Shown here in pieces: positions 7,704-54,435 of a stretch of DNA of 64,000 bases. Each line of letters opens with the position of its first letter. Within the stretch, counting starts at the first letter, position 1. The stretch is taken from positions 1 through 64,000 of the forward strand of contig JAUNJY010000005.1 of the NCBI GenBank assembly GCA_030535455.1, in the 5' to 3' direction. The translations under genes were made by a program, and so were the position numbers. The notes beneath the pieces were generated by a model, which worked only from the letters and a program-made list of their open reading frames with translations, ran no database searches and had not been told where the DNA came from. Source of the stretch: a bacterium (GTDB taxonomy: Bacteria; Bacillota; Clostridia; Lachnospirales; Lachnospiraceae).

Positions 7704-7739
7704 AAAAAAGCCTGCCGCTAAACAGCGACAGGCTTTTTT
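7704..7739. terminator. Bidirectional terminator
   Basis: AAAAAAGCCTG-C-CGCT (7704-7719) pairs with AGCG-A-CAGGCTTTTTT (7724-7739): a 15-bp stem with one mismatch, with A and T runs on the two sides. It lies between convergent genes and also flanks repeat copy A. Confidence 0.9.
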
Positions 7740-7830
7740 ACTCTATAGGAAAGAAGATGTCGCTGTTGCGACCGAGTTTGGCGCGGCAAAGTGTCTTCTC
7801 CCGGGGGATTGAGGAAGAAGACACTTTGTT
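7734..7830 (-). repeat. Dispersed intergenic element, copy A (3'-truncated)
   Basis: Read on the minus strand. A 12-bp perfect inverted repeat (arms 7817-7828 and 7787-7798, AAAGTGTCTTC type) is followed by the conserved core (about 7756-7786). The core has the hairpin GTCGC-AACA-GCGAC (plus 7759-7772), then sequence shared with copies B-D. The 3' strands of core helices P1 and P2 are missing. At 7734-7753 it joins TTTTTTACTCTATAGGAAAG, also found twice beside copy B. Confidence 0.75.
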
Positions 7831-7833
7831 CTC

Positions 7834-10800
7834 TTAATCTCTAAATAAATCTTCGATTTCTTCACGAGTAAGTTTATTAATAAATACTTCTTTGGATTGA
7901 ATAACGGCTTCCGATAATGCTTTCTTACGTTGCTGTAACTTGTAGATTTTCTCTTCAATTGAGCCTTTTGTAAGAAGCTTGATTACGTGAACCTTATTCT
8001 TTTGTCCAATACGGTAAGCACGGTCAGTTGCCTGCTCTTCTACCGCTGGATTCCACCATGGATCAAAGTGGATTACCGTATCTGCACCTGTTAAGTTAAG
8101 ACCAGTACCACCAGCTTTTAAGGAAATCAAGAAGACGCTGCCTTCACCAGCATTAAATCGGTTTACATATTCCTGACGGTCTTCCATTGCTGTAGATCCT
8201 TCTAAGTAGAAGTATCCAATATTTTGTTTCTTTAATTCCTCTTCAATTAATCCTAACATAGAAGTGAATTGAGAGAAGATTAAAATTCTATGGCCATTTA
8301 AGATAATATCTGGAAGTAAATCCATAAGAAGGTCTAACTTACCACTACCACCTGTATAGTTGTCAATAAACGTAGATGGATGACAACAAATCTGACGAAG
8401 TCTTGTAAGTGCTGCAAGAATCTTCATCTGACTCTTTGCAATACCATTTTCGTTAATTTCCTTAGTAATATCATTACGGATACTTTCCATGTAAGAAAGA
8501 TAGATATTACGCTGTTCGTCTGTCATATCTGTTAAATACTTGCTTTCGATCTTTTCTGGAAGCTCTTCTAATACGTCTTTCTTCATTCTTCGTAAGATGA
8601 ATGGCTGAATATGACGACTTAAGTCTTCTAACACTTCCTGATTGTTTTCACGAATAATTGGCTTTTCATAACGCTCTGCAAACTTGGCATGGCTAAATAA
8701 ATAGTATGGCATGATAAAGTCAAAGATTGACCATAACTCTGATAAACTATTTTCAATCGGCGTACCCGTTAATGCAAAACGATATTTTGCACGAACTTGT
8801 TTTACCACTTTCGCACTGATGGAGTTGGCATTCTTAATAAACTGTGCTTCATCGATAAACATAGTATGGATTTTCACAGCTTCATAATGCTCGATATCAC
8901 GACGGATTAATGGATAAGAAGTAATGATTACATCATTATCTACGTGAGTCTCGATTAATTCCTTACGAATTTCTGGACTTCCACTTACTACTACCGTACG
9001 TATATGCGGAGCAAAGTTGTGGAACTCATCCTGCCAGTTATACACTAGGGAAGTTGGACAGATTATAAGGAATGGCATCTTTTCAGATCCACTTGCTTCC
9101 ATTTCTTCAATACAGCTTGTAATATATACAATTGTCTGAAGTGTCTTACCAAGCCCCATATCATCCGCTAAGATACCGCCAAGGCCGTTCTTTGCCAAAG
9201 TTCTAAGCCATTTGTAACCAGTTACCTGGTATGGACGAAGGCTTACTTCAATACCGTCTGGAAGTTCAAAATTAGTTGCACTAGGTTCAACGATTCCATT
9301 TACTAATTCAACGAATTCTTCATTCTTTTCAATAAAGAAATCCTTTCCTTCCTCTAAAATGTTGTTTACATACACAGCAGAATTCTTAGGAAGCATTAAC
9401 CCATTTTCACCAATATTCTCTTCATCCACATCTAATTTATCAAAAATATCATTAATAGATGCAAAGTTTTCATCTTCAAGAGAGATAAAGGCACCATTTT
9501 TCAGTCTATGGTACTTCTTCTTTAATTGCAGGGATTGGAATAAGGCATGAAGTTCATCTTTTGGAATCTCTTCATAATTGAATTCCATCTCTAACATATT
9601 AATTTCGTTATTTACCTTTAAGGCAGTCGTTAACTTACCTGGGTTACGTAACGTAAAGTTTTTAAAGTCATCCGAATAGTATAAATCGCATGTATCACTT
9701 AATTCCGTAACGCCAATCGTTAAGAACTCAAAGATATAACGTTCGTCACGAAGCGCGTAATAATTACAGCTTGGAACAAAATGCATATCTTCTAATAAGG
9801 AGATAATTGCACTTTCTTTTTCTGGCTGACGTACAATGATCAGACCATCTTTTGCTACATAATCAAGTGGATTAATTTCATAATCGCCATATTGGAACTT
9901 CACAGTAGCACGAACATTGGCTTTGTGCTTATCTAGGTAAATCGAAGGTTTTAAATCCGCAACGATATATTTGTCTTGAAGTTCGGATGGAATATCAAGT
10001 TCCATCGTCTCAAAGATCTTTGGAAGAACCATGGATAAGAATTTATCTTTTGCTTCCTTATGGAATACTAAAGGCTTGTCCTGTTTCCCAAAAATAGAAT
10101 AGAATGGCAAATAATTTGAAATAAACTTGCGATTAGGGCGGTATAATACGTTATCAACAAGCATCAATTCCCCTTTGTCTGTCAGTGGAATGATGTTCGC
10201 ATTCTCCTTATCCTCTAATTGGATGGAGTCCTCGTCTGTTACCAGACCAAGCTTGATCACCGGATTACCTTTTACATAACGTGCGCGTTCTAATTCATTG
10301 TTGTACACCTGAATATTGAACGGTTGATCCTCTAATTGCTCTAATAATTTGAAAAACATGTGTTTCGATAATGCAACCATGTTCTTCTGGAAGATAAGAT
10401 TGCTAAGTGAGCTTCCAAGAACCTCCTGCACCTCAAAAATTTCTAAAAAGAAATCTAAGATTGCCTGAGATTCTTTCGTAAATGTGCTTTCACCATGGAT
10501 AAATTTAAATTCTTTACCAAGCACGATTGTTTCTTTTCGCATATATTCAGATAAGAATTTACGAACATTCTGGATCTTATACTGACGTCCCGCACCCGCT
10601 GATAGCTGCACATAGACTCTAGATTCATCATTACGAAGTAGGTTCGGAATTCGAACGGTTACTTCAATGTCATAAACTTCACCATAAGTTGTCAAAAAGT
10701 CTTGTTTTTCAAAATACTGCAAGATACGATATGCTGCCATATCCTCCGATGTATTCGGCTTTTTCGCAGTTTTTTGTTCATAATAATCAGCGATAAATAA

Positions 10801-11064
10801 AAGTAATGCAACAACGTGCTTACATGGCCCTGTGTGTTTGGCATGTCCTGGACAGTTGCAGGAATGGTTTACTACCTTTCCTTCTTCTAACGTAACACTA
10901 ACATTATAGTCGTTACTTCCTTTTACAATTGCAAAATATTGCTGACTAGCTTTTGACCAACGCACATTTGTTACAGCCTGACTTTTATAGTAACGCGCGC
11001 CACGTAAATAAGTTGTTTCGTTCGCGGTCAATTTTTTAATTTCGTCTCGAGTTAATACATTCAT
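7834..11064 (-). CDS. SNF2-family DEAD/DEAH helicase with SWIM zinc finger
   Basis: A 1076-residue ATP-dependent DNA translocase of the bacterial Rad54/HepA-like SNF2 group. An N-terminal SWIM zinc finger (CNCPGHAKHTGPCKHV, about residues 70-85) is followed by a long SNF2-associated region. The ATPase core shows Walker A DDMGLGKT, the DEAQ box MFIDEAQFIKN, ALTGTPIENSLSELWSIFDF, then helicase-C motifs LIFSQFTSM, LISLKAGGTGLNL and QATDRAYRIGQ. I use the second ATG (11064): AGAAGG lies 9 nt before it but touches the first ATG at 11073. Likely roles are chromatin or transcription-complex remodelling or repair; the substrate is unknown. A -10-like TATAAT lies at 11103-11108. It is monocistronic. 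Confidence 0.95.
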   Translation of the reverse strand: MNVLTRDEIKKLTANETTYLRGARYYKSQAVTNVRWSKASQQYFAIVKGSNDYNVSVTLEEGKVVNHSCNCPGHAKHTGPCKHVVALLLFIADYYEQKTAKKPNTSEDMAAYRILQYFEKQDFLTTYGEVYDIEVTVRIPNLLRNDESRVYVQLSAGAGRQYKIQNVRKFLSEYMRKETIVLGKEFKFIHGESTFTKESQAILDFFLEIFEVQEVLGSSLSNLIFQKNMVALSKHMFFKLLEQLEDQPFNIQVYNNELERARYVKGNPVIKLGLVTDEDSIQLEDKENANIIPLTDKGELMLVDNVLYRPNRKFISNYLPFYSIFGKQDKPLVFHKEAKDKFLSMVLPKIFETMELDIPSELQDKYIVADLKPSIYLDKHKANVRATVKFQYGDYEINPLDYVAKDGLIIVRQPEKESAIISLLEDMHFVPSCNYYALRDERYIFEFLTIGVTELSDTCDLYYSDDFKNFTLRNPGKLTTALKVNNEINMLEMEFNYEEIPKDELHALFQSLQLKKKYHRLKNGAFISLEDENFASINDIFDKLDVDEENIGENGLMLPKNSAVYVNNILEEGKDFFIEKNEEFVELVNGIVEPSATNFELPDGIEVSLRPYQVTGYKWLRTLAKNGLGGILADDMGLGKTLQTIVYITSCIEEMEASGSEKMPFLIICPTSLVYNWQDEFHNFAPHIRTVVVSGSPEIRKELIETHVDNDVIITSYPLIRRDIEHYEAVKIHTMFIDEAQFIKNANSISAKVVKQVRAKYRFALTGTPIENSLSELWSIFDFIMPYYLFSHAKFAERYEKPIIRENNQEVLEDLSRHIQPFILRRMKKDVLEELPEKIESKYLTDMTDEQRNIYLSYMESIRNDITKEINENGIAKSQMKILAALTRLRQICCHPSTFIDNYTGGSGKLDLLMDLLPDIILNGHRILIFSQFTSMLGLIEEELKKQNIGYFYLEGSTAMEDRQEYVNRFNAGEGSVFLISLKAGGTGLNLTGADTVIHFDPWWNPAVEEQATDRAYRIGQKNKVHVIKLLTKGSIEEKIYKLQQRKKALSEAVIQSKEVFINKLTREEIEDLFRD

Positions 11065-11226
11065 ACAAAACATCCTTCTAAACGTTTTTTAATCATCAAA
11101 CTATTATATCACATTAAAGGGATTAATTGTAGTTTTTTTTGTAATACTTAATAAATTTCTATGGCACCTCTACCACAAATTGCATAAAAAGCTGCTGGAA
11201 AAGTAGTTTTCTGTTCCTAAATAAAG

Positions 11227-11261
11227 AAGACCCCAAAAGCAACAATAGCTTTCAAGGTCTT
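11227..11261 (-). terminator. Intrinsic terminator
   Basis: The 14-nt arms 11227-11240 and 11248-11261 pair with a few G-U pairs and are followed on the minus strand by CTTTATTT. It lies directly after the stop codon of the membrane-protein gene at 11267. Confidence 0.7.
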
Positions 11262-11266
11262 TGTTC

Positions 11267-12673
11267 TTAGCGCTCACCGCAATATGTACGCTGTTCATAA
11301 AAGGTACTGCTAAAATCTGTTTCGTCTAGTTTTCTCCATTTTTGAAAATTAATTTTATGTTGATACCATAAGGAATAATACAACGGTAGCTTTGTCTCAT
11401 CAACCTCTTCTTCCTCACTATATGATAAACTCACAGGAGCTACAGTCTGAGCGGCGATAAATCGATAATTATTTCCCTTTGTGGGAATGGTATACTGATA
11501 TACATTTCCTCCAAACCACTCTGTGAATGCTCCATTATTTATCTCTGTAATATCATAATAGGCATCTTCCCCTGAAGACGTTGTATATATTCCATAAACT
11601 ACTGGCTGCCAATTAATATTTCCATCGTAATAAAAATTAAAATAATCCGTAAACGTACGGGATGGTTTCTCCCTCCACTTCCCATACGTAAGCACCCGCA
11701 CTGTCCCTGGATACTCAGCATCTTCATTAAAATAGCTATAGACAAAGGTTACATCTAGCTTATTCAGATCTTCTTGTTCTAATTCTCTTCTAGTTTCATC
11801 ATCCTCCATATAGGAAAATCCCGTATCTTTTTGGACAACAACCTTATTTATTCCATCATAATTTGCAATTTCTTCCGAGGACAGCTGACTTAAGATTTCT
11901 TCTGGAAAACCTGCTTTTCTCATCTGTTCTACAATTGTGGCCTCATTTGCACTTGCAACTGTACTATTGTATGTCTCTAACGGCTTTAGTAAAGACAAAT
12001 AGCGAACGGCCGGTACCAGTGTTATTACAGCAATTAGACAGATCCCAGCAACCAGATATAGGATTACTTTATCCTTAAGATAATACTCCTCGACTTCCTT
12101 TTGCTCGTTTGCCAAGGAGATATTAACAGGTGACAGATTTACAACTATGACAATAACTAGTGCAATTAACACTATAAATCCTAACCACGACAGCTCTATT
12201 ACATAAGTAGAAAACAAGGTAATCACAGTAATCGCAATCAGACTCTTCTTGATTTTTGTGTAACTATCTACGATAGGCAAAACTAATCCTGGCAGGCTGT
12301 TGGCCTCATACATACCATTTTCGATGCTATCTAGCATGGCATACAGCAGCCCCATTTGCACAAGAAATGCAGTTCCTGATACCAGTGACAGATATAACTC
12401 ATTATCATACTGACATATAATGATTGCCAGGCATCGAAACACGAAATATCCAATTGATAAGCAATATGCTTTATGTAAACTTTTATTTCCGTCTTTCATC
12501 AAAAACATTCCATGAAGCATTAAAAATGCCCCCAGTAGTGTTGTAATCTCACCTAGTGGAAACGACGTCAATGAAATCGTTATAAATGATAAGACAATCC
12601 CCCATTTCATCTGAAACATACATGTTCCCCAAGGCAGACCATATTTCTTATTTTCTTCTAATAAGCTTTCCAT
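11267..12673 (-). CDS. Polytopic membrane protein with extracytoplasmic C-terminal domain, paralog 1
   Basis: A 468-residue protein of unknown family. Residues 20-180 contain about five hydrophobic helices and another lies near 205-225; the C-terminal half is hydrophilic. It is a clear paralog of the next gene upstream. Shared blocks are KWGIVLSF, PLGEITTLLGA, KSLHKAY, STYVIELSWLG, GFPEEILSQLSSEEIANYD, TVRVLTYGKW and YRFIAAQT. The block GFPEEIL..LSSEEIANYD..KVVV begins the extracytoplasmic part. A TGCTATAAT extended -10 lies at 12722-12727 (TATAAT), after the previous gene's terminator, so it has its own promoter. Function unknown. Confidence 0.75.
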   Translation of the reverse strand: MESLLEENKKYGLPWGTCMFQMKWGIVLSFITISLTSFPLGEITTLLGAFLMLHGMFLMKDGNKSLHKAYCLSIGYFVFRCLAIIICQYDNELYLSLVSGTAFLVQMGLLYAMLDSIENGMYEANSLPGLVLPIVDSYTKIKKSLIAITVITLFSTYVIELSWLGFIVLIALVIVIVVNLSPVNISLANEQKEVEEYYLKDKVILYLVAGICLIAVITLVPAVRYLSLLKPLETYNSTVASANEATIVEQMRKAGFPEEILSQLSSEEIANYDGINKVVVQKDTGFSYMEDDETRRELEQEDLNKLDVTFVYSYFNEDAEYPGTVRVLTYGKWREKPSRTFTDYFNFYYDGNINWQPVVYGIYTTSSGEDAYYDITEINNGAFTEWFGGNVYQYTIPTKGNNYRFIAAQTVAPVSLSYSEEEEVDETKLPLYYSLWYQHKINFQKWRKLDETDFSSTFYEQRTYCGER

Positions 12674-12721
12674 TTTCCCTCCAAATACTTCATTTTACTT
12701 TTTTCCTCTCAATTCCCTTTT

Positions 12722-12727
12722 ATTATA
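12722..12727 (-). promoter_or_regulatory. Extended -10 promoter element
   Basis: TATAAT preceded by TG-C on the minus strand, about 50 nt before the ATG of the first paralog. I see no good -35, which is common with extended -10 promoters. Confidence 0.45.
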
Positions 12728-12740
12728 GCATAATTCATAT

Positions 12741-12767
12741 AAAAAGACACCCATTTTTCAGGGTGTC
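12741..12767 (-). terminator. Intrinsic terminator
   Basis: GACACCC (12746-12752) pairs with GGGTGTC (12761-12767) and is followed on the minus strand by TTTTT. It ends the second paralog. Confidence 0.8.
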
Positions 12768-12796
12768 AATTACGTCAACATGCTTTGTATCTCTGA

Positions 12797-14215
12797 TTAT
12801 CCCGTTATAAAATAATACTGGCGCTGCTCATGAAACGAAGTATAATAATCGGACAAATCCATGGTATTCCATATAGGAAAGCCTACCCTATGGTAATAAT
12901 TAAGCTGATATCGATCAAAATACTCCTGTTCTTGCCCGCCTAGTTCATCGTATTCTTCCTGTTCCACTTCAATCGTCTGTGCTGCTATAAATCGATAATT
13001 ATAACCATTTCTAGGAATAGTATAACGATACGTATCAATGGTACTATAATTCCAAAAATCATCACGTAACATGCTGTCTGCATCAATCCTATACTGCTTC
13101 TCCATTCCTAAATCTGCCGTATAAATTCCATATGCTATGGGATTTAAAGTCATATTAACATCATGATTGAAATAAAAACAATCTGTATAAGCATGACCCG
13201 GAGTTTCCTTCCATTTTCCATACGTAAGCACTCGAACTGTTCTAGGAGATGTAAGCTGCTCTTCAAAATAACTATAAACAACAGTAAGCTCCAGCTTACT
13301 TAAATCTTCTCGTTTCCTTCTGGTCTCGTCATCCTCATCGCTATTTCCATCATGCCTTAAAAACTGAGACGAAAGATTTTTTCGTACTACAACCTTTGTT
13401 ACTTTATCATAATTTGCAATTTCCTCTGAAGATAGGTCAATCAAGATTTCTTCCGGAAAACCTGCCTTCTTCATCTGATTTACTATATCATCAAGATCCA
13501 TATTTACTTGATTTCCAGTATACTCGTGTAAGGAATCATGTAAAGAAACATAACGTGCGGCTGGTACTAACAATAGCACCAAAAGAGTTCCGCTTACTAT
13601 GATGGTATATAGCCTTGCACTGCCTTTTGGTCTGTTTTTCTCTTTTGTATCTGCTATATTATCCAATACAAGCTCTACAGGTTCCAGGTTTTTTAAAATA
13701 CTAATTACAAAGGCTAGAAGTAGACACAGTCCGATCCATGATAATTCCATAACGTATGTTGAAAACAATTGAATTACAAGGATTCCAATCAAGGATCTAC
13801 GTATGGTTGAATAGGCATGTGCAATTGACTGAACTTGATCTGGATCATGATTTTCCTGATACATCCCTTTTTCTAACTGTACTGCAATTTCATAAAAAAG
13901 CCCAGTTCGTAAAAATAAAGCAAGTACTGTCAGCAGTCCTTCACTTTGATATTCAAATACAATGGTGATTATGACTCGGTATGCAAAAAATCCTATTCCT
14001 AACAGATACGCCTTATGTAACGATTGGTTCTCCTCTTTTAACAAAAATAGCCCATATAATAATAGGATACTGCCCAAAAATCCAGTAATCTGAGCAAGTG
14101 GAAATTCCGCTAACGATATATTTACAAACGTCAGGAATACTCCCCACTTAACCTTGGCCATGGCATCTTTCCATCTACCTCTATATGGTTCTATTGTTTG
14201 TGTGTTTTCTTCCAT
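12797..14215 (-). CDS. Polytopic membrane protein with extracytoplasmic C-terminal domain, paralog 2
   Basis: A 472-residue tandem paralog of the 11267-12673 product with the same architecture: about six hydrophobic segments in the first half and a hydrophilic C-terminal domain starting near GFPEEILIDLSSEEIANYDKVTKVVV. Similarity runs over the full length but the copies have diverged well, so the duplication is old rather than an assembly artefact. It has its own sigma-A-type promoter (TTGGAA, 17 nt, TATAAT) and its own terminator, so the copies are independent transcription units. No family is recognised. The conserved extracytoplasmic block suggests an envelope function. Confidence 0.75.
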   Translation of the reverse strand: MEENTQTIEPYRGRWKDAMAKVKWGVFLTFVNISLAEFPLAQITGFLGSILLLYGLFLLKEENQSLHKAYLLGIGFFAYRVIITIVFEYQSEGLLTVLALFLRTGLFYEIAVQLEKGMYQENHDPDQVQSIAHAYSTIRRSLIGILVIQLFSTYVMELSWIGLCLLLAFVISILKNLEPVELVLDNIADTKEKNRPKGSARLYTIIVSGTLLVLLLVPAARYVSLHDSLHEYTGNQVNMDLDDIVNQMKKAGFPEEILIDLSSEEIANYDKVTKVVVRKNLSSQFLRHDGNSDEDDETRRKREDLSKLELTVVYSYFEEQLTSPRTVRVLTYGKWKETPGHAYTDCFYFNHDVNMTLNPIAYGIYTADLGMEKQYRIDADSMLRDDFWNYSTIDTYRYTIPRNGYNYRFIAAQTIEVEQEEYDELGGQEQEYFDRYQLNYYHRVGFPIWNTMDLSDYYTSFHEQRQYYFITG

Positions 14216-14292
14216 CTAACATCCTCCAAATCATTTCCTTCTGCCTCTTTCATTTTGAAACTCATTCTGAAAAAAATGTACGCAGAATACTA

Positions 14293-14321
14293 ATTATAGC
14301 ATAATAGAAAAGTCCTTCCAA
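14293..14321 (-). promoter_or_regulatory. Candidate sigma-A promoter with extended -10
   Basis: On the minus strand TTGGAA (14316-14321), a 17-nt spacer ending TATGC, and TATAAT (14293-14298). It is about 78 nt upstream of the second paralog's ATG. Confidence 0.65.
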
Positions 14322-14396
14322 CATCACCGCCTATATTACTATATATTGGATTCTTGAACTTCAAAGAATTACTTCCTGCTAAACTACTGACAACAA

Positions 14397-14435
14397 AAAG
14401 AGAGCACCGAACAATCTAAGGATTGTTAAGTGCTC
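14397..14435 (-). terminator. Intrinsic terminator
   Basis: GAGCAC (14402-14407) pairs with GTGCTC (14430-14435), and AACAATC (14410-14416) pairs with GATTGTT (14421-14427), followed on the minus strand by TCTTTTTG. It lies directly after the radical SAM gene. Confidence 0.85.
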
Positions 14436-14445
14436 CCATTGTTAT

Positions 14446-15315: not shown

Positions 15316-15390
15316 GCTATTATTTAAACATAATAAGCATTTATTGTCACTTGGTAATATTACGCAGTAGTTATTGGAATATTATGTCGA

Positions 15391-16770: not shown

Positions 16771-16847
16771 AATTGTCCTCCTTGGTATGTTAATAAATGC
16801 TAAATCTGTCATATTATATCACATTAATAATGATTTGTCGAAAAAAC

Positions 16848-19042: not shown

Positions 19043-19135
19043 TTTCTCACCCTTATTCCATTCATTTTTCTCCTTTTATGGTACTCCTTTTCCAGATTTT
19101 TGTAAATGCGAATTGAATACCCTTACTTCTGTAGA

Positions 19136-24009: not shown

Positions 24010-24202
24010 CAAAGTATCTTCGACACTCGTGGCTCCCCTATCACTCAATCTCCCGGGAGAAGACACTTTGTCTGCACCGAGCCCGGTCACGTAAGCGATA
24101 TCTCTCCATCGGGTGAGTGTGCAATCTGGCTTTCTGTTTTTCGAAAGCCTTTTTTATTCTATAGGGAAGGACTCGGAGAGAACTTTCCAATAGAGTAAAA
24201 AA
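24010..24202 (+). repeat. Dispersed intergenic element, copy B (complete)
   Basis: Inverted repeat arms CAAAGTATCTTC (24010-24021) and GAAGACACTTTG (24059-24070) precede the core at 24074-24122. P1 is GCAC (24074-24077) with GTGC (24119-24122). P2 is GCCCG (24081-24085) with CGGGT (24110-24114). P3 is GTCAC/GCGAT (24086-24090, 24095-24099) around GTAA. A terminator follows. The TTTTTTATTCTATAGGGAAG segment (24150-24169) and an inverted relative of it (24183-24202) close the element. Confidence 0.8.
24128..24155 (+). terminator. Plus-strand terminator at the end of repeat copy B
   Basis: GGCTTTC (24128-24134) pairs with GAAAGCC (24143-24149), followed by TTTTTT. No plus-strand gene lies upstream, so it would end an RNA made from the repeat itself. 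Confidence 0.75.
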
Positions 24203-24240: not shown

Positions 24241-25371
24241 TTAATATATCCCATACTCACAACCCACATGTTTTGTAAGTACTTCGTCGACCAATAGAAC
24301 TCCTTCTGGTCCCTTCTCATATAACTTTAGCACACCATATCCTGTACCACCGTTCCATAAACGGTTATGTCGCTTCGTGCCATTTGGTGCCTCATAATTA
24401 ATATGCAGCATTTCATCCTTATTACAATGAATTTCTACTAGCAGACGAGCTGTCTTAGTTTCTTGCCGAACTTTCCATATCAGCTCAGTCTCAGTTTCTT
24501 CACAATGAAACTTAGTTCTGGCAAGGGTCCAGAACTTAGAGAAATTGAATTCATAGTTGGTTCCTTCATAATAAAAGGCACCTAATAACTTACGGTTTAA
24601 CGGAATACCAAAAGCTTTTGGCCTTCCACCCCCAAGGTCAAATACGCTGTTATGAAGTCGTCTGCCATATTTCTTACTATAAAGGTCATTGGACGACAGC
24701 CATACCCATGGACTTGTAAAATCCCTTCCCCAATTCTTGTCTGCATATCCAAAAGAGCCTTCTTTGGTCACAATATACTTTTCGCCATTGACCGTAATTG
24801 TTCCCTCATATAATGTCTTCATTCCTTCTGCATGCCAATACATTTCAAATGCATTTAGCTTACGAAACATCTTACTGGCACCATACCCCACATGAAAAGC
24901 TACTTGCTTGTCGATTGTTAAGTCCCACTCCATTTCTCCGCTGTCACAAAGATATTCTGGATGCTTCTTTATTTCTTCTTTGCTGACCGTTACCTTTCCT
25001 TTTGTCACAGTCTCGCTTAAAAAGCAATCCTCTACCATGATTTGAAAAGATGGTTCATTTCTTAACCTTGCTGACTTCCAAGGGAAAAAACGATGTAATT
25101 GTGCTGCATCCTTCCCCCACCAGCCAGCCTTCACCATAATATAGGAAGGATGGATCTTGTTCTCCTTATGTAAGGGAAGTTGCCCTAATACTGGTACTTC
25201 TTGATGCTCTCTTGGATTACACGTATAAAATTCAATAAAGAAGGATTTCTCTTCACCGGTGCGTTCATTAATCCCTGTTAATGAATGCCACCACCAATCA
25301 TAGCCTTGTTCCCTTAACGGCCCTTCTAACATAAAAAAATCACGAGTGATATCACTTTTGTTCATCGCCAT
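24241..25371 (-). CDS. Tocopherol cyclase-like / lipocalin-type protein
   Basis: A 376-residue soluble protein without signal peptide, rich in Trp and Tyr and alternating strands. FFMLEGPLREQGYDWWWHSLTG at the start and GSFGYADKNWGRDFTSPWVWLSSNDL in the middle fit the tocopherol-cyclase / AttH-like fold family as I remember it from clostridial genomes. A real cyclase reaction is unlikely in an anaerobe with no tocopherol pathway, so treat this as fold-level only. The ATG at 25371 is chosen because CGGAG precedes it; the longer in-frame reading to 25413 lacks a ribosome site. Monocistronic. Confidence 0.65.
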   Translation of the reverse strand: MAMNKSDITRDFFMLEGPLREQGYDWWWHSLTGINERTGEEKSFFIEFYTCNPREHQEVPVLGQLPLHKENKIHPSYIMVKAGWWGKDAAQLHRFFPWKSARLRNEPSFQIMVEDCFLSETVTKGKVTVSKEEIKKHPEYLCDSGEMEWDLTIDKQVAFHVGYGASKMFRKLNAFEMYWHAEGMKTLYEGTITVNGEKYIVTKEGSFGYADKNWGRDFTSPWVWLSSNDLYSKKYGRRLHNSVFDLGGGRPKAFGIPLNRKLLGAFYYEGTNYEFNFSKFWTLARTKFHCEETETELIWKVRQETKTARLLVEIHCNKDEMLHINYEAPNGTKRHNRLWNGGTGYGVLKLYEKGPEGVLLVDEVLTKHVGCEYGIY

Positions 25372-25441
25372 TATTTCTCCGTTTCTGTCAATCTTTATAC
25401 TAGTACTATACAACGGAAGGAAATAGATGTAAAGAATGGTT

Positions 25442-42056: not shown

Positions 42057-42057
42057 A

Positions 42058-43335: not shown

Positions 43336-43441
43336 AGTCACCCTCCTACAGATCCTTAAAGAAATATATAGAACTACTATTTATAATAGCATTATATGCT
43401 TCATTTTGGGAACATATGAAACAAACACGATTTCTATTATA

Positions 43442-44374: not shown

Positions 44375-44380
44375 TTTCTG

Positions 44381-46140: not shown

Positions 46141-46165
46141 TGTTATCATTTCCCCTTTAATCGAT

Positions 46166-48129: not shown

Positions 48130-48164
48130 ATTACCATCTCCTTCTTTACTTCTCATTCTTTCCC

Positions 48165-48245
48165 GCGCCGAGTCGGGTCGCATAAGCGACATCTTCCTTT
48201 CCGGCGAGTGTGCATCGTTTGCCCTGTTTTTTAGGGCATTTTTTT
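48165..48245 (+). repeat. Dispersed intergenic element, copy C
   Basis: Core 48165-48213. P1 is GCGC (48165-48168) with GTGC (48210-48213). P2 is GTCGG (48172-48176) with CCGGC (48201-48205). P3 is GTCGC-ATAA-GCGAC (48177-48190). The 5' AAAGTGTCTTC inverted repeat is absent. A plus-strand terminator follows: GCCCT (48221-48225) with AGGGC (48233-48237) and seven T (48239-48245). Confidence 0.8.
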
Positions 48246-48293
48246 AATGAATAGAAGGCTGCTTGAAAAGAAGCCTTCTATTCATTAAAAAAA
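48239..48293. repeat. Perfect 22-bp inverted repeat
   Basis: TTTTTTTAATGAATAGAAGGCT (48239-48260) is exactly repeated in inverse at 48272-48293 around an 11-nt spacer. Its left arm is the T-run of the terminator in copy C and its right arm is the T-run (minus strand) of the next terminator, so three hairpins are nested end to end. It could be a transposition footprint or a double-sided insulator. Confidence 0.75.
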
Positions 48294-48327
48294 GCGATAG
48301 TGTTCCTGTCATAAGAACACCATCGCT
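48287..48327 (-). terminator. Terminator of the amino-acid ABC / kinase-like operon
   Basis: AGCGAT (48293-48298) with ATCGCT (48322-48327) and GTGTTC (48300-48305) with GAACAC (48315-48320) form one stem, followed on the minus strand by TTTTTTT. It lies after the stop codon at 48374. Confidence 0.9.
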
Positions 48328-48373
48328 CTGGTTTACTTAATTGTAATAAAATATACAAAATTTGTCAAACATT

Positions 48374-48970
48374 TTATTTTATTTGGTTTTCCCTTACAAT
48401 ATTACACAAGATTTGTGCTGTTTTCTCCACCCCATATTTACTGCTATCAATTAATAAATCATACTCTTCTAGCAGACTCTCGCTTTGTCCTCCAAATCTT
48501 CGACGATAATTTTCCCTAGCGCGATCCACTGTCTTTATATACTTATAAGCTGTCTTTTTATCCATTTGCAATGTCTCAATACAATTGGCAAGTCGTTTCT
48601 TGTATGGTGCATATATGTATATGTTCAAGCAGTTTTTATGATCTTTCAAAATAGAATTGGCACATCTTCCTACAATGATACAAGACTCGTTCTTAGCAAG
48701 ATCTCGAATGATATTCTCTTGTACACTAAAGATTTCCTGCTGCATGCTAAGAAGTCCCATTCCAAGAGGATACTGCCTTCCATAAAACAGGGAACCGGAT
48801 TGTTCCTCTTCTTCACTAATTCTAGAGGTAGGCAGTCCCATCCTTTTTGCAGTTGCTTCAACAATGTCCCTATCATAAAAGCTAATTCCTAAACTCTCTG
48901 ACATCTTTTTGGAAATCAATCTTCCTAGACTGCCAAATTGTCTTGAAATTGTAATTACATACTTTTCCAT
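48374..48970 (-). CDS. Cytidylate kinase-like protein
   Basis: A 198-residue P-loop kinase-like protein. The N-terminus KYVITISRQFGSLGRLISKKMSESLGISFYDRDIV matches the cytidylate-kinase-like family (AAA-type P-loop SRQFGSxGR, residues 9-17), and CIIVGRCANSIL and the YRRRFGG segment are also typical. This family is distinct from true Cmk and its substrate is usually not known. It starts 16 nt after the last permease gene of the amino-acid ABC operon, behind AAAGGAGGGCGG, so it is probably co-transcribed with it. A strong terminator follows. Confidence 0.88.
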   Translation of the reverse strand: MEKYVITISRQFGSLGRLISKKMSESLGISFYDRDIVEATAKRMGLPTSRISEEEEQSGSLFYGRQYPLGMGLLSMQQEIFSVQENIIRDLAKNESCIIVGRCANSILKDHKNCLNIYIYAPYKKRLANCIETLQMDKKTAYKYIKTVDRARENYRRRFGGQSESLLEEYDLLIDSSKYGVEKTAQILCNIVRENQIK

Positions 48971-48986
48971 AACCGCCCTCCTTTTG

Positions 48987-49748
48987 TTATGATCTGAGCT
49001 GTGGCATCAGCTTCCTTCTCTTTTGAAGCCTTCGAACAGCCAGGGATAATGAGAAGTTAATCACAAAATATAGCAAAGCTGCTGTCCCAAACAATACGAA
49101 AACATCTGATACATTAATAGTACCTGTTCCATTATAACGGTTTGCTGAGCTAAGCAGTTTCTTTACCCTGCTCATAAGCTCTATGGTTGCAATGTTGGCC
49201 AGATAGGACGAGTCCTTTACCGTTGTAATCACCTGACTAAGTAATGTTGGAACTACACTTCTATATGCCTGAGGAAGTATGATATATCGCATAATCTGAA
49301 CCGTACTAAACCCTTGCGAATGTCCAGCTTCGAATTGTCCAAGAGGTACTGCATTTAATCCTCCACGTATAATCTCCGCTATGACGGATGACGTAAATAA
49401 GACCAACGCCACTGCCGCCTTAAATAATAACTTAGTTTCAACCGATGTTAGACCAAACATGGCATTGGAGAAAATTGATGGCGCCGGGCAGAATACCAGG
49501 CAGATAAAGATCCATAGTAACAATGGCGTATTACGAAATACCTCAATATATATGATGGCAAGTATTTTAAACACCTTGGTCTTTTTGCTTGTACAGTAGT
49601 TTCGTACCATTGCAAGTACAGATCCAATTAAAATTCCTAATATGACTGAAAGTGCCGATAAGATTAAGGTAAATGCTACCCCTTTTAAAATATAGGTTAT
49701 AATGGCACTATTCTTAAGTATTGCAAAACTACCTTCTAAATCCGTCAT
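48987..49748 (-). CDS. Polar amino-acid ABC transporter permease (second)
   Basis: A 253-residue inner-membrane permease of the HisM/GlnP type with about five helices. IYIEVFRNTPLLLWIFI and the EAA-loop segment EIIRGGLNAVPLGQFEAGHSQGFSTVQIMRYIILPQAYR, which docks on the ATPase, are diagnostic. It overlaps the first permease gene by ATGA (49745-49748). The pair forms a heterodimeric channel for a polar amino acid, most often glutamine or glutamate. Confidence 0.92.
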   Translation of the reverse strand: MTDLEGSFAILKNSAIITYILKGVAFTLILSALSVILGILIGSVLAMVRNYCTSKKTKVFKILAIIYIEVFRNTPLLLWIFICLVFCPAPSIFSNAMFGLTSVETKLLFKAAVALVLFTSSVIAEIIRGGLNAVPLGQFEAGHSQGFSTVQIMRYIILPQAYRSVVPTLLSQVITTVKDSSYLANIATIELMSRVKKLLSSANRYNGTGTINVSDVFVLFGTAALLYFVINFSLSLAVRRLQKRRKLMPQLRS

Positions 49749-50470
49749 GCCACGCTCACCTTACCTTTCTTATCTGCTCCCATCGTGTCACGCTCCCTTT
49801 TCTTTAACGCACTTTCCCATTTCGTTGCAATCGTGGAAAGTGGGAAACAAATGATAAAGAACAAGACTCCGCTTAATAAATATGCTGGTGCATAAGCACC
49901 GCCTGTATTTACTCCTGTAACAAAGCTATACGTTAACGATATTAAGTCTGCCCCTCCTACAATATAAAGGCAGGAGGTATTCTTAATTAAATTTACAATC
50001 TGATTTACCATTGGCGGAAGGATGATCTTAATACTTTGAGGAAGAATGACATAATACATTCTTCCAAGATACCCAAAGCCTTGGGCCTGTGCTGCTTCAA
50101 ACTGGCCTTTTGGAATTGCCTCGATACCTGCCCGGATAACTTCTGCCATGTAAGCTCCATGATAAATTCCAAGTGTCAGGATACCGACAATGATAATATT
50201 CATACTATGATTGGAAAATGCCAGTGTATAATATAAGAAGCACATTTGCAGAAGCAGTGGCGTATTCTGTATGATTTCAATATAAATTCTACTGATGATC
50301 CGAAGCAGTTTCTTTGAACTGGTTGCCATAAGCCCCAGTATTATTCCTAACAGAAAGGCTAGAAACACTCCAAAAACTGCTGTCTTTAACGTATTTTCCA
50401 GGCCTAGAAGGAATGTGGAACGGTATTGCCATACTTTTTCCCAATTGCTTGCTGAAAAAATTTCAGACAT
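49745..50470 (-). CDS. Polar amino-acid ABC transporter permease (first)
   Basis: A 241-residue permease of the same family: about five helices, IYIEIIQNTPLLLQMCFLYY near residue 65 and the EAA loop EVIRAGIEAIPKGQFEAAQAQGFGYLGRMYYVILPQ. The start ATG at 50470 lies 20 nt after the binding-protein stop, with GGGGGGAT in front. It works with the second permease and the ATPase encoded first in the operon. Confidence 0.92.
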   Translation of the reverse strand: MSEIFSASNWEKVWQYRSTFLLGLENTLKTAVFGVFLAFLLGIILGLMATSSKKLLRIISRIYIEIIQNTPLLLQMCFLYYTLAFSNHSMNIIIVGILTLGIYHGAYMAEVIRAGIEAIPKGQFEAAQAQGFGYLGRMYYVILPQSIKIILPPMVNQIVNLIKNTSCLYIVGGADLISLTYSFVTGVNTGGAYAPAYLLSGVLFFIICFPLSTIATKWESALKKRERDTMGADKKGKVSVA

Positions 50471-50490
50471 CCTATCCCCCCCTTATGTAA

Positions 50491-51378
50491 TTATTTTAAT
50501 TTATTGTCAGTGATAAGCTTATCCGTTGTTCCATCGGAATTCCAGCCTTTAACTAACTCATCAACAACACTTGATAATTCAGAACCTTTTTTCGTTGCTA
50601 CACCATATTCCTGAGGTGAAAACTGGTCATCAATATAGGAACGTCCATCTGTAAGGTATACTGCAAGAATTGATTTATCTACGCAGAACGCATCAACTTC
50701 TCCGGCACTAAGGGCTGTTGAAATAGTTGGATAATCATCATATTGCTGGAAGGTCACTCCTTCTTTCCACGTTGCTGGATCAAATTTATCTTCGTTAAAT
50801 CCTTCTCCTGTAATGACCTTTTTATCAATCATTTCTTTTACTAAGGATTTTGCAGATGTAGAACCAGAGGAAACACCGACTTTTTTATCTTTTAAATCTG
50901 CAATGCTCTTGATATTCTTGGAATTTTCAACAAGTACGGTTACATAATCGGTATAATATGGAGTGGAGAAATCCCAGCTCTTCTTTCTTTCGTCTGTGAT
51001 TGTAAATGTTGCAAGTACACAGTCGATATCACCAGAATCTAATAATTCGGTCCTTGTAGCTGCTGTAACTGCTGTATATTCTACTTTTACTCCTAGATAA
51101 TCTGCTATATTCTTAGCCAATGAAATTTCCATTCCGGTATATTCATTGGTCAATGGATCCTGATAGCCAAATCCGATTACTGCATTTTTTACACCAACAC
51201 GAAGGACTCCACGGCTGACAATGTCCTTCACTTCTTTTGACCATTTTGATGTATCTGCCGTCTTTGTGGCATCCCCACTTGCATCTGTCTTTTCAGAATC
51301 GCTCCCACAGCCTGTAAATAACATGGCACTCATTACTACGCTAAGTGCCAACGACACTAACTTTTTCATTTTTCTCAT
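50491..51378 (-). CDS. Polar amino-acid ABC transporter substrate-binding lipoprotein
   Basis: A 295-residue lipoprotein of the SBP_bac_3 family. The signal peptide ends in MLFTGCGSDSE (lipobox Cys23). The mature domain carries GVLRVGVKNAVIGFGYQDPLTNEYTGMEISLAKNIADYLG and DIDCVLATFTITDERKKSWDFSTPYYTDYVTVLV, the normal signatures of glutamine/glutamate binders; the Arg in TDERKK usually contacts the ligand carboxylate. Start behind AAGGAGGAATTTAT. Second gene of the operon after the ATPase, an order common in clostridia. Confidence 0.93.
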   Translation of the reverse strand: MRKMKKLVSLALSVVMSAMLFTGCGSDSEKTDASGDATKTADTSKWSKEVKDIVSRGVLRVGVKNAVIGFGYQDPLTNEYTGMEISLAKNIADYLGVKVEYTAVTAATRTELLDSGDIDCVLATFTITDERKKSWDFSTPYYTDYVTVLVENSKNIKSIADLKDKKVGVSSGSTSAKSLVKEMIDKKVITGEGFNEDKFDPATWKEGVTFQQYDDYPTISTALSAGEVDAFCVDKSILAVYLTDGRSYIDDQFSPQEYGVATKKGSELSSVVDELVKGWNSDGTTDKLITDNKLK

Positions 51379-51414
51379 ATAAATTCCTCCTTAACAGTTC
51401 TATTTTTAGTCTCC

Positions 51415-52140
51415 TCATGAACGAATAATTTTTCCTAAAAATTGTTTTACTCGCTCATTTTCCGGATTTTCGAAGAAATGCTCCGGCTTTCCTTCTTCAA
51501 TAATTTGTCCATCTGCCATAAATACAATGCGGTCGGCTACCTGTCTCGCAAATCCCATCTCATGGGTAACCACTACCATGGTTATGTTTTCTTTGGCCAG
51601 ACGGATCATAACATCCAATACTTCCTGAATAGTTTCCGGATCAAGGGCTGAAGTAGGCTCATCAAATAAAATGATCTTCGACTCTGCACATAGGGCACGG
51701 GCAATTGCAATTCGCTGCTGCTGCCCCCCGGATAATGTGGTTGGATAGACATGCGCCTTATCCCTTAATCCAACTACGTCCAAATAGTGATAGGCCAGTT
51801 TTTCTGCTTCTTCTTTGCTTTTATGGTGAAGCTTCATTGGTGCCAATGTAAGATTTTTTAGCACCGTCATATGAGGGTACAGATTAAACTGCTGAAATAC
51901 CATGGACATGCTTTCGCGGATTACATGTGTTTTATTATGTGACGTTATAAGCTTCCCATCGACATATACATGACCGCTTGTTGGCTCCTCCAAATAATTC
52001 ATGCAGCGGACAGTGGTTGACTTGCCGGATCCTGAAGGACCGATAATTACCAACTTTTCGCCTTCTTTTACTTCCAAATTCACGTCTTTTAATACATGCA
52101 AATCGCCAAAATATTTATCTACATGTTCAAGTTTGATCAT
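51415..52140 (-). CDS. Polar amino-acid ABC transporter ATP-binding protein
   Basis: A 241-residue ATPase of the GlnQ/HisP group: Walker A GPSGSGKST (about residues 34-42), Q-loop FQQFNLYPHMTVLKNL, signature LSGGQQQRIAIARAL, Walker B IILFDEPTSALDPE and the switch His in VVVTHEMGFARQVADR. First gene of the operon, behind AAAAGGAGGGAGAAT. Its leader contains an intrinsic terminator just after the promoter, so expression may be controlled by attenuation. Confidence 0.95.
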   Translation of the reverse strand: MIKLEHVDKYFGDLHVLKDVNLEVKEGEKLVIIGPSGSGKSTTVRCMNYLEEPTSGHVYVDGKLITSHNKTHVIRESMSMVFQQFNLYPHMTVLKNLTLAPMKLHHKSKEEAEKLAYHYLDVVGLRDKAHVYPTTLSGGQQQRIAIARALCAESKIILFDEPTSALDPETIQEVLDVMIRLAKENITMVVVTHEMGFARQVADRIVFMADGQIIEEGKPEHFFENPENERVKQFLGKIIRS

Positions 52141-52168
52141 ATTCTCCCTCCTTTTCTGCTTTTAGAAA

Positions 52169-52226
52169 GCCTTTTTTCAATAGTAGGAGACTGCTCGAAG
52201 AAATGTTTCCTGCTATGAAAAAAGGC
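52169..52226. repeat. Long inverted repeat in the amino-acid ABC leader
   Basis: GCCTTTTTTCAATAGTAGGA (52169-52188) is inversely repeated as TCCTGCTATGAAAAAAGGC (52208-52226), with one bulge and one G-U. Its right arm contains the T-run and last stem bases of the terminator at 52218-52248. Confidence 0.65.
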
Positions 52227-52248
52227 ACCCGGAATTTTTCCGAGCACC
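52218..52248 (-). terminator. Terminator in the leader of the amino-acid ABC operon
   Basis: GGCACCCGGAA (52224-52234) pairs with TTCCGAGCACC (52238-52248) over 11 positions including G-U pairs, followed on the minus strand by TTTTTT. It lies only a few nucleotides below the predicted start of transcription of the ABC operon. Confidence 0.75.
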
Positions 52249-52261
52249 TTTGCTTTTCCAT

Positions 52262-52291
52262 AGTATAGAGGAACTTTACATTTTATGTCAA
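52262..52291 (-). promoter_or_regulatory. Strong sigma-A promoter of the amino-acid ABC operon
   Basis: On the minus strand TTGACA (52286-52291), an 18-nt spacer and TATACT (52262-52267). Transcription should start near 52255, giving a leader of about 115 nt that begins with a terminator hairpin. Confidence 0.75.
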
Positions 52292-52407
52292 TATTAATAG
52301 CGTTAAACGTTCTATTCTTACAAACTTTTGGACTTTTAGTTAATTATCCTAAATGATTTATAACATTTACTTTAGTTCCTATCGTTTGTAATGCTTTCCT
52401 ATGAAAT

Positions 52408-52641
52408 CTATTTTCGGTCAGCATATCGTTTTACTTTTCGTAGAAAAGTTTCACAAGCTTCCGCTTCAGAGGAATATTCTTTTTCCCCAGTTCGTTTTCC
52501 TCTTTCACTATAATATATTTTCCATTCATCTTCATGCACTAAACATAGTTTTTCATTTAGAAAACCACCTTGCATTATAGAATACAAATTTTTCGAAATT
52601 CCTAATCGTTCTAATTCATTTTCTAATTCTTTTACATTCAT
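52408..52641 (-). CDS. Small soluble protein, possible immunity-type fold
   Basis: A 77-residue protein: an N-terminal helix (VKELENELERLGI), a central strand pair (LCLVHEDEWKIYYSERGKRTGEKEY) and a C-terminal helix (SEAEACETFLRKVKRY). The WxxYYSERGxxTGEKxFxSExEAC pattern resembles small immunity-like proteins found near contact-dependent or polymorphic toxins (Imm59-like from memory), but no toxin gene lies beside it. It could be an orphan immunity gene. Start behind AGGAGGATTAATTCACA. It is isolated between repeat copy D and the ABC promoter. Confidence 0.6.
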   Translation of the reverse strand: MNVKELENELERLGISKNLYSIMQGGFLNEKLCLVHEDEWKIYYSERGKRTGEKEYSSEAEACETFLRKVKRYADRK

Positions 52642-52711
52642 TGTGAATTAATCCTCCTGAAAAATCCAGCATCGATTAATTTATGTATCGGCTACAAAGC
52701 ATGTGCAGGAT

Positions 52712-52790
52712 GCGCACTCACCTGACAGGAGAATATCGCTAGCGTGACCAGGTTCGGCGCGGAGTGTTTTGCAAGTAAGACACTTTATTC
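52712..52790 (-). repeat. Dispersed intergenic element, copy D
   Basis: Read on the minus strand. AATAAAGTGTCTT (from 52790) is followed by the core at 52760-52712. P1 is GCGC (52757-52760) with GCGC (52712-52715). P2 is ACCTG (52749-52753) with CAGGT (52720-52724). P3 is GTCAC (52744-52748) with GCGAT (52735-52739) around GCTA. The second long inverted-repeat arm and the T-run terminator have been lost. Confidence 0.78.
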
Positions 52791-52814
52791 CCATAAACTT
52801 CTCGATAAAATGAA

Positions 52815-52845
52815 CAAAAGAGGCGTATCTTCAAAGATACACCTC
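52815..52845 (-). terminator. Intrinsic terminator of the MATE gene
   Basis: GAGGCGTATCTT (52820-52831) pairs with AAGATACACCTC (52834-52845), with one mismatch, followed on the minus strand by TTTTG. Confidence 0.75.
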
Positions 52846-52873
52846 CGAATTTTTCCACAAGATTGCCAAGGCT

Positions 52874-52897
52874 TGGATGAAATCCTGATTTCATTCA
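52874..52897. repeat. Near-perfect palindrome, second copy at 57261
   Basis: TGGATGAAATC-CT-GATTTCATTCA: 11-nt arms with one G-U, 5 nt downstream of the MATE stop codon. The same 24-mer with one change occurs at 57261-57284, also just after a stop codon, which suggests a small repeated 3'-end element. Confidence 0.65.
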
Positions 52898-52902
52898 CAG
52901 CT

Positions 52903-54246
52903 TTAGTTTCTATCATATCTACGTAAGAACCAAGCAAACCAACTAACTAACACAACACCTTTTAAAATACTGCTGATGCTAATACTCCACCAGATACCGT
53001 TCAGTCCCAATGCCGTCGCAGCAAGTACCATGGCCATTGGAATTCTTGCAGCGCTAAAAGTAATGCCTACCACTGATGGTGGAATTGTCTTGCCCATACC
53101 GCCAAATGCACCTTGCGTTGCAATTTCCATGCACATAAATAATTGGGATACTCCAAGGATACGTAAATATTCTACGCCCATAGGCTGTACTGCTTTCTCC
53201 TGAATAAAGATATTGAAGATTGGTCCTGGTAAAAATACTAAAAGGAAAGTACATATAATGCCCCATCCAATTACAACAAACATGGATACCTTGTATCCTC
53301 TTTTTACACGGTCATGATTTCCGGCACCATAATTTTGTGCAATAAAGGAATTTACAGCTGCAGAAAATCCTTCTGCAGTCATCCAGCTGATCGACTCAAT
53401 CTGGCTTCCCACCTTCTGAACTGCTACTGCATCATCGCCAAAGCCGGCTACCAGTCTGGAAATGATCATGGAAATTCCAGTAAAGATCATGCTTTGCAAG
53501 GAAATAGGAAATCCAATCTTAGTAATCTGCGCCATATCTTTAAAATTTGGCTTAGAAAGCACTTTGATTTGATGGAATAACAACTGATCTTTCTGGCATG
53601 CGACTAAGAACATAAGAGTTACTACTCCCTGTGCCACTACGGTTGCAATTGCCGCACCTGCTACGCCTAATCCAGTAATCGGTCCTACGCCAAAGATTAA
53701 TAGGGGATCCAACACAATGTTGATGACTAAGCCGACAGCTGTTGCGCGAAATGATACCCTGCTGTTTCCCATAGCCGTAAATATACCGGTCAATACCTGA
53801 TTGATAAAGGTAAATAAGATACCGATGCTTACAATACGAAGATAACTTGTTCCGTCCTTGATTGTCTGACTGCCGTTTAGCCCTAAAAATCGAATAAATG
53901 GATCTGCCATCATAAATATTATACAAGTAATCAGGATTCCTAATACTAAGGACAGCTGAATGCCGCTTGTTGCGTATTCACCTGCCTCTTTTTTATTTCC
54001 TGCACCGAGGGCTTGTCCTACCTTGATCTGTCCACCCATTTTCGTTAATGTGGAAATACCGTTACCAAGCCACATATACATACCTGCTGCACCAACGGCA
54101 GCCACAGCGGCACTTCCAACTCTTCCGATCCAAATCATATCGATCAGGTTATAAGCCATTTGTACCAAAGATGTTGCCATAATCGGCACTGCCAGCTTCG
54201 TCAAGTTTGGAAAGATTGGCCCTTCTACTAAGTTTACATTTTTCAT
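52903..54246 (-). CDS. MATE-family multidrug/sodium efflux transporter
   Basis: A 447-residue membrane protein with about twelve helices in two similar halves, typical of MATE exporters, which use a sodium or proton gradient to expel drugs or metabolites. MATSLVQMAYNLIDMIWIGRVGSAAVAAVGAAG (residues 23-55) and the matching FPISLQSMIFTGISMIISRLVAGFGDDAVA (about 244-273) are the two half signatures. Start behind AAGGACGAAAAATA. It ends before a short repeat and a terminator. The substrate cannot be inferred. A second MATE lies 5 kb away. Confidence 0.94.
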   Translation of the reverse strand: MKNVNLVEGPIFPNLTKLAVPIMATSLVQMAYNLIDMIWIGRVGSAAVAAVGAAGMYMWLGNGISTLTKMGGQIKVGQALGAGNKKEAGEYATSGIQLSLVLGILITCIIFMMADPFIRFLGLNGSQTIKDGTSYLRIVSIGILFTFINQVLTGIFTAMGNSRVSFRATAVGLVINIVLDPLLIFGVGPITGLGVAGAAIATVVAQGVVTLMFLVACQKDQLLFHQIKVLSKPNFKDMAQITKIGFPISLQSMIFTGISMIISRLVAGFGDDAVAVQKVGSQIESISWMTAEGFSAAVNSFIAQNYGAGNHDRVKRGYKVSMFVVIGWGIICTFLLVFLPGPIFNIFIQEKAVQPMGVEYLRILGVSQLFMCMEIATQGAFGGMGKTIPPSVVGITFSAARIPMAMVLAATALGLNGIWWSISISSILKGVVLVSWFAWFLRRYDRN

Positions 54247-54399
54247 TATTTTTCGTCCTTTGTTTCTAGTCTCGGCTAGTATTATACCAATTCTTTTATA
54301 TAAATGGAATTAAATTTTACTATTGTACTGTTATTTAAGCAAATTGCTTCTTTTTCTCTATTATGTTCCATCATTCTTTGAGTTATAAATAAGATACGA

Positions 54400-54435
54400 G
54401 AATAAAGTGTCTTCGAGTCTCTCAGCTCCCCATTG
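54400..54435 (+). repeat. Dispersed intergenic element, fragment E
   Basis: AATAAAGTGTCTTCGAG followed shortly by CTCCCC matches the first 35 nt of copy B (ACAAAGTATCTTCGACAC...GGCTCCCC). The core and terminator parts are missing, so this is a 5' remnant. Confidence 0.55.

Follow-up and report, generated by a model that had tools for sequence, protein, structure and literature searches.

REP/REPIN-RAYT systems and the elements of the IS200/IS605 family occur as dispersed copies with hairpins at their ends and without terminal inverted repeats, and group IIC introns are large ribozymes that carry a reverse transcriptase and lie in sense orientation to a terminator. The accessible text of PMC8919778 describes how these (bacterial-C) introns insert immediately 3' of rho-independent terminators. 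In the Bacillus cereus group, the available sections of PMC3446304 document the repeats bcr1–bcr18, which are intergenic and reach high copy numbers; some of them resemble miniature inverted-repeat transposable elements (MITEs), some have a conserved secondary structure, and about half of the copies are transcribed. A title cited in the same source describes bcr1 as restricted to this group. The mobile/repeat sequence candidates (MRSC) are multi-copy covarying motifs that the accessible part of PMC11109978 takes as selfish elements; one of them, MRSC-65-2, is a single long stem with UYCCGG repeats that occurs in diverse phyla. The element family considered here came to light in a stretch of 64,000 nucleotides (the window) from a genome of the family Lachnospiraceae (assembly GCA_030535455.1, contig JAUNJY010000005.1, positions 1 to 64,000). 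Comparison of its copies shows a repeated, covarying, and mobile element that strongly prefers one orientation at the T-runs of gene ends. With moderate confidence, we interpret it as a mobile, non-autonomous element whose core folds in a strand-specific way, probably as RNA, and which lands at the T-runs of terminators. An initial annotation of the window had proposed selection on RNA structure or a MITE that folds, and our results favor a mobile element whose fold is under selection.

The element is about 130–190 bp long, and no open reading frame (ORF) was seen in it. Alignments indicate that one strand, the plus strand, can fold into a hairpin (H1), a core, a terminator-like hairpin, and a second hairpin (H4), with helices that are kept by compensatory change; the core is followed by a stretch ATCTT/ATCC, and the terminator-like hairpin carries a T-run. 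H1 is near-perfect and variable in sequence, either of a long type (AAAGTGTCTTCGACACT...GAAGACACTTTG or AAAGTGTGTGTTC...) or of a short type (e.g., GAATGTCGCTTGCGACATTC). The core of about 49 nt comprises P1 (GCGC/GYGC), a C-G pair with a bulged U, a tandem GA loop (GA/GA) between P1 and P2, P2 (5 bp), and P3 (5 bp with a variable loop), which is followed by a conserved 10-nt bulge. H4 has the form (T4-6)NNNNN-ATAGGAA...TTCCTAT-NNNNN(A4-6), and in many copies it is followed by the terminator-like hairpin of a convergent neighbor, whose T-run is the A-run of H4. The two ends, compared by eye, differ (H4 arm vs. GAACAAAG/A-run plus H1), and no terminal inverted repeats were seen.

Mobility is most evident at five loci that are represented by both occupied and empty alleles in relatives of the genus Butyrivibrio, which is the pattern that marks a non-autonomous mobile element; two of the pairs are clean. 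As judged from these alignments, copies have inserted at new sites, namely T-runs downstream of genes, mostly with the 3' end of the element against the T-run. The insertions lie at a T-run and have T-runs on both sides, and at four of the five sites, a terminator-like hairpin precedes the T-run. In gene orientation, the first clean pair reads GTGGC-TTTTTT-CATTAATTTC when empty (G456) and GTGG-TTTTTT-[element]-TTTTT-CATTAGTTTC when filled (G248); the second reads CTTA-TTTTTTT-ACCCATTATAG when empty (G476) and CTTA-TTTTTT-[element]-TTTTTTTT-CATTATAG when filled (G594). At both clean sites, the T-runs on the two sides measure 5–8 nt and may be a target-site duplication; they are homopolymers, and in another genome, G144, one end of the element is constant. 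A triosephosphate isomerase-like locus, filled in G476 and empty in G594, agrees with insertion; the ATATCATAGGAG present in its target is a match to the H4 arm and possibly an old relic. A hup-like locus (filled in G676, empty in G725) also agrees with insertion, with a right flank that is only 71% alike. In genome G553, one copy lies between gyrB and gyrA, a place where six other Butyrivibrio genomes have none and which differs in a seventh (G625). The names of these genes (triosephosphate isomerase-like, hup-like, gyrB, and gyrA) were given by eye from the sequence and are presumptive.

The orientation of the element relative to its neighbors was scored in 124 copies; the 176 matches in two of the alignments introduced below (A4 and A5) represent 170 distinct copies, 46 of which lay too near the end of a locus. 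The neighboring ORF on the 3' side, called by length only, is convergent in 109 copies and shares the strand of the element in the other 15 (p = 9e-19). The A-run is directly followed by a stem that passes a score of 8 in 55 of 115 copies (A-runs of at least 4) but in only 75 of 874 control intergenic A-runs (at least 5; odds ratio 9.8), and by one that passes a score of 6 in 73 of 115 copies vs. 130 of 874 controls. A position and orientation that are fixed at gene ends, with the element's own terminator facing that of the neighbor, would also suit a host regulatory or 3'-end RNA (e.g., a two-way terminator), with copies retained because of their function and mobility as a by-product. We regard this explanation as improbable, because presence at the same locus differs between close species, because 300 of the 397 sampled genomes of the family have no match at the threshold used, and because decayed copies exist.

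Support for the fold comes from three alignments: A3, with 44 cores (41 from the own genome of the window and three from relatives); A4, with 81 matches (59 distinct) picked by a strict pattern; and A5, with 95 matches (90 distinct) from many genera. A4 and A5 lean towards the model because both were fitted to it. In A3, 95.3% of the cells pair, compared with 90.1% in column shuffles (none of 500 as high); double changes affect 7 of 15 pairs, a number reached by 14 of 500 shuffles, and 46 cells, a number reached by none, and slid controls are only 11–61% paired. RNAalifold, unaided, recovered nearly the same fold from A3, with 14 pairs, 7 of them with a double change. The initial annotation had named independent variation of P1 and P2 as the outcome that would speak against it; instead, 12 of the 15 pairs in the model-fitted A5 show compensatory change (155 cells, 32 further pair types), 97.1% of the cells stay paired, and none of 500 shuffles is as high on any of five measures. 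In A4, 4 of 15 pairs have a double change (2/500 shuffles as high). All three core helices covary, showing the compensatory covariation by which functional structured RNAs are recognized. Eight unpaired core columns are 90–98% identical in A5 (columns 13, 44, 67, and 70 at 98%; columns 12, 50, 52, and 65 at 90–94%).

The flanking hairpins are kept as well. Among 103 copies of H4 recognized by pattern, the outer arms are perfect in 75, have one mismatch in 14, and more in the other 14; of 65 distinct arm combinations, 40 are perfectly complementary (shuffled mean 0.9, maximum 5), and by this comparison the outer arms of H4 covary too. In H1, 876 of 900 cells in 88 copies are Watson-Crick pairs. 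The balance of G-U over A-C cells in the core (58 to 19 in A5, 4 to 2 in A4) favors the plus strand; in H4, it is 103 to 53.

The covariance-model search proposed in the initial annotation, together with BLAST, recovered the element far beyond the window, with at least 54 copies in the own genome, matches in 97 of the 397 sampled genomes of Lachnospiraceae (model R1, E ≤ 1e-4; 75 of the 319 good ones), and covariation above shuffles. BLAST of the own genome with copy B of the window scored 40 of 124 candidates and yielded 45 matches at E ≤ 10; the E-value is 1e-8 or lower for 44 of these. The count of at least 54, fragments included, follows from seven places that the model adds and from the window copies A, C, and D, all of which are absent from the BLAST list. 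Tandem arrays are present on contig C19 (three copies at a spacing of 187 nt) and on contigs C92 and C126 (two copies each). The number of R1 matches per matching Lachnospiraceae genome ranges from 1 to at least 13. At the level of the order, 12 of the 295 genomes have matches at E ≤ 1e-5, two further families included. A pattern scan of named genomes gave at least 118 stretches. Among the matches listed, 80 titles refer to Lachnospiraceae or its genera (Butyrivibrio, Clostridium fessum, Coprococcus comes, Kineothrix, [Clostridium] aminophilum, and others), and some are labeled only Clostridiales, Eubacteriales, Eubacteriaceae, or Eubacterium. Near-identical copies inside each of G144, G263, and G553 fit a recent spread. 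A match in G093 and a 15-nt match of the BLAST with copy B were taken as chance. Two strict patterns found no stretch in viral_contigs, and one Butyrivibrio copy, used as query, found no match in PLSDB; it matched 14 of 50,697 phage records (e.g., MT835472.1), all of them unannotated human-fecal contigs that may be chromosomal.

The search for a mobilizing enzyme compared 20 genomes that have at least five listed core matches with 20 that have none at the threshold; all are draft genomes, and past loss is possible. Y1_Tnp, the hallmark of IS200/IS605 and REPIN systems, is present in 12 of the core-rich and 9 of the core-free genomes and was not found at E ≤ 1e-10 in the other 8 core-rich drafts. 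RVT_1, expected for retroelements and group II introns, is present in 15 core-rich and 13 core-free genomes and was not found at E ≤ 1e-10 in 5 core-rich drafts. IS110, whose DEDD transposase works with a bridge RNA, is present in 12 and 13 genomes, respectively, and 8 core-rich drafts have no match to PF01548 at E ≤ 1e-6. The own genome of the window has matches to Y1 and IS110 but none to RVT_1, and no match to any of the three was found in genomes G253 and G128, which have at least 12 and at least 13 core matches. Across the two sets, copy number shows no correspondence with genes for Y1, IS110, or reverse transcriptase. The pattern used for H4-like hairpins found none in 50 Y1, reverse transcriptase, and IS110 loci (L356–L405). 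This result and the lack of visible terminal inverted repeats give no likeness to a transposon end, which the initial annotation had considered; no transposon-end library was compared.

These results bear on two other explanations. The A-run that meets the target T-run in one orientation, the T-runs that flank the insert on both sides, the lack of terminal inverted repeats, and a structured RNA-like core without an ORF would suit an RNA-templated process like that of short interspersed nuclear elements (SINEs), in which a plus-strand RNA ending in H4 and the A-run pairs with a terminator T-run, where a reverse transcriptase supplied in trans copies it. RVT_1 was not found in a quarter of the core-rich draft genomes, including that of the window, and is common in core-free genomes, and transcription would stop at the element's own terminator, before H4 is reached; we consider this route unlikely. 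A bacterial counterpart of SINEs, in which a structured RNA with no ORF and with an A-run at its 3' end would be copied in trans into the T-runs of terminators, is correspondingly doubtful; if the SINE-like reading were true, intrinsic terminators would be safe landing sites. The near-perfect palindromes H1 and H4, the dozens of mostly intergenic copies, and a T-run beside one end, which resembles the target use of Y1 enzymes, would also suit a DNA-only palindromic MITE that is moved by an HUH/Y1 or RAYT-like single-strand transposase, with a core of folded DNA like attC or REPIN, and RNA being irrelevant. This explanation is possible, although the distribution of Y1_Tnp in the 40 draft genomes, the absence of H4-like hairpins, by the pattern used, from the 50 loci, the lack of an obvious common sequence in H1 and H4, the G-U bias of the core, and the terminator on the same strand make us doubt it.

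No autonomous copy was recognized in the fetched loci, which were mostly chosen for having a core. They contain 232 H4-like hairpins; 21 rows are without the usual core signature, some of them representing the same place on both strands, and most of these have a variant core, an ordinary core missed by the pattern, or a following H1 within 60 nt on each side. A lone H4-like hairpin with T-run and A-run lies around position 5868 of locus L232; no core is closer than 420 nt, and ORFs of at least 90 amino acids are absent within about 200 nt.

If the element is a non-autonomous mobile element with a strand-specific core, the folded strand (more likely RNA, possibly single-stranded DNA) would be recognized by the mobilizing machinery, and the core would be preserved by selection for being moved. 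The T-run of a terminator might be found because it pairs with, or resembles, the T/A arms of H4; this would also keep insertions out of coding sequence. The enzyme would act in trans and is probably none of Y1, reverse transcriptase, and IS110; after insertion, the element's own terminator and that of the neighbor would face each other across H4.

Several observations weigh against this interpretation. No mobilizer was found among the three gene types tested in the 20 vs. 20 genomes. Not every copy is located at a terminator: none was seen at the gyrB-gyrA copy of G553, and 60 of the 115 copies fail the stem threshold at a score of 8. Site 1 of the comparison between G248 and G456 is not empty, since G248 keeps a deletion remnant of the G456 copy, and the G248 counterpart of a second G456 site is not cleanly empty. 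The T-run at the right end may stem from target duplication or belong to the element itself; all five copies fetched from G144 read GAACAAAG at the right end. The 5' ends of the 170 copies are mixed (GAA[C/T]AAAG in 34, at least five A followed by G or T in 53, other in 83), so that target duplication and an element-borne end are not separable in general. The further pair types in A4 do not exceed those in shuffles (259/500). Single-sequence folding of four element sequences (z-scores of -0.70, -5.29, -6.30, and -4.65) gave the consensus core in only one of the four minimum-energy structures; the structure therefore rests on the alignments. The preference for the plus strand is moderate, because 27 of the 58 G-U cells in A5 come from one P1 pair (31 to 18 without that pair) and because H1 shows no such bias (4 G-U vs. 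10 A-C); folded single-stranded DNA would give the same bias as RNA. No plus-strand promoter-like site was found around copies B or C.

All five stretches that the initial annotation had listed in the window exist, with P1, P2, and P3 of copies B, C, and D as given there. The window contains the complete cores B, C, and D, a deletion derivative (A), the reported 5' fragment, and one extra 3' fragment. Copy B (plus strand) consists of H1 (24011–24069; AAAGTATCTTC ... GAAGACACTTT, recognized by sequence), the core P1-P2-P3 (24074–24122), a terminator-like hairpin with T-run (24128–24155), and H4 with A-run (24156–24202); the A-run is the T-run of a minus-strand terminator-like site (24226–24201) beside a convergent ORF (24241–25413). 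Copy C (plus strand) is without H1 and consists of the core (48165–48213), a terminator-like hairpin with T-run (48220–48246), and H4 with A-run (48247–48293), which abuts a minus-strand terminator-like site (48329–48291) beside a convergent, cytidylate kinase-like ORF (48374–48970). Copies B and C had been described as ending in a T-run terminator; such hairpins with a T-run are present, but the element continues into the palindrome H4. Copy D (minus strand) has a core (52712–52760) and a short, damaged H1 (52762–52786), whereas terminator hairpin and H4 are missing. The R1 scores of B (63.7 bits), C (73.4 bits), and D (72.7 bits) are not independent, as all three sit among the 44 training sequences of the model.

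Copy A (minus strand) has an intact H1 (7788–7827) and a truncated core fused to the right arm of H4 and the A-run (7734–7785; 20.7 bits). It is a deletion derivative that has lost the 3' strands of P1 and P2. The AAAGTGTCTTC inverted repeat said to be shared by the copies is intact in A and has one change in B but is absent from C, and D carries another, damaged short hairpin. The 5' fragment (54400–54436, plus strand) comprises only the left part of a long-type H1. The 3' fragment (52151–52225, plus strand), which is new relative to the initial annotation, contains a terminator-arm remnant, T-run, H4, and A-run.

The copies vary in several further respects. Long H1 hairpins with an interior like TCAACTCCCCTGCCCCTCAATC, which could form a short local hairpin competing with the long stem, recur across genera (L112, L153, L160, and window copies A and B). 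Subfamilies with altered cores (GAGCTGCGCATCC or CACCAGTCGCATCC) and an ordinary H4 are represented by L121, L280, L281, L282, L278, and L317. Another palindromic repeat, with the core GTCA(C/T)TGGGGACGT, adjoins or sits inside element copies of Butyrivibrio (L241, L243, and L258; G553). The copy L271 of G456 corresponds to a remnant in G248 (L291), in which AATAAAGAATGTC is joined to ATAAAAAAACC, suggesting loss by internal deletion.

Rfam 15 gave no match at gathering score in the window, in agreement with the initial annotation, which had recognized no known riboswitch or ribozyme. Permissive Rfam scans of copy B and six other stretches returned 15 matches, all below the cut-offs and 11 of them to microRNA-type hairpins. 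A likeness to kink-turn, twister, or hammerhead motifs was considered and dropped. A literature search revealed no paper recognizably on this element family in the text accessible; supplementary tables (e.g., of PMC8040213 and PMC11109978) may list the family. Lachnospiraceae are among the major bacteria of gut and rumen, and some of their genomes contain dozens of gene-end insertions of the element. It joins three features that are seldom found together, namely an RNA-like core that covaries between genera, signs of mobility, and insertion at the T-runs of terminators mostly in one direction, and it offers a test of whether small bacterial mobile elements can be recognized or copied through RNA.

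By kind, the element is a MITE-like non-autonomous element; it is not filed as a classical MITE (a DDE derivative), because its ends, by eye, do not form terminal inverted repeats. It resembles the bcr repeats, as far as the accessible description of these goes, in its intergenic location, high copy number, and conserved structure, but unlike bcr1, it spans several families of another order, a distinction that is based on description rather than on sequence. Like the MRSC motifs in the available part of their source, it is multi-copy and covarying, but its three-helix core with bulge loops sets it apart from MRSC-65-2; the 250 MRSC motifs of PMC11109978 were not compared singly. With REP/REPIN-RAYT systems and the ends of IS200/IS605 elements, it shares end hairpins, dispersed copies, and the lack of terminal inverted repeats; it differs from them in that the presence of Y1 does not track copy number and in the complex core between the hairpins. 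Its choice of terminators as targets is like that described for group IIC introns in the accessible text, whereas its length of less than 200 bp, the absence of an ORF, its antisense orientation, and the lack of an Rfam match above the cut-off in the scanned stretches are unlike them. In target choice, the element behaves like a group IIC intron but is not a member of that group.

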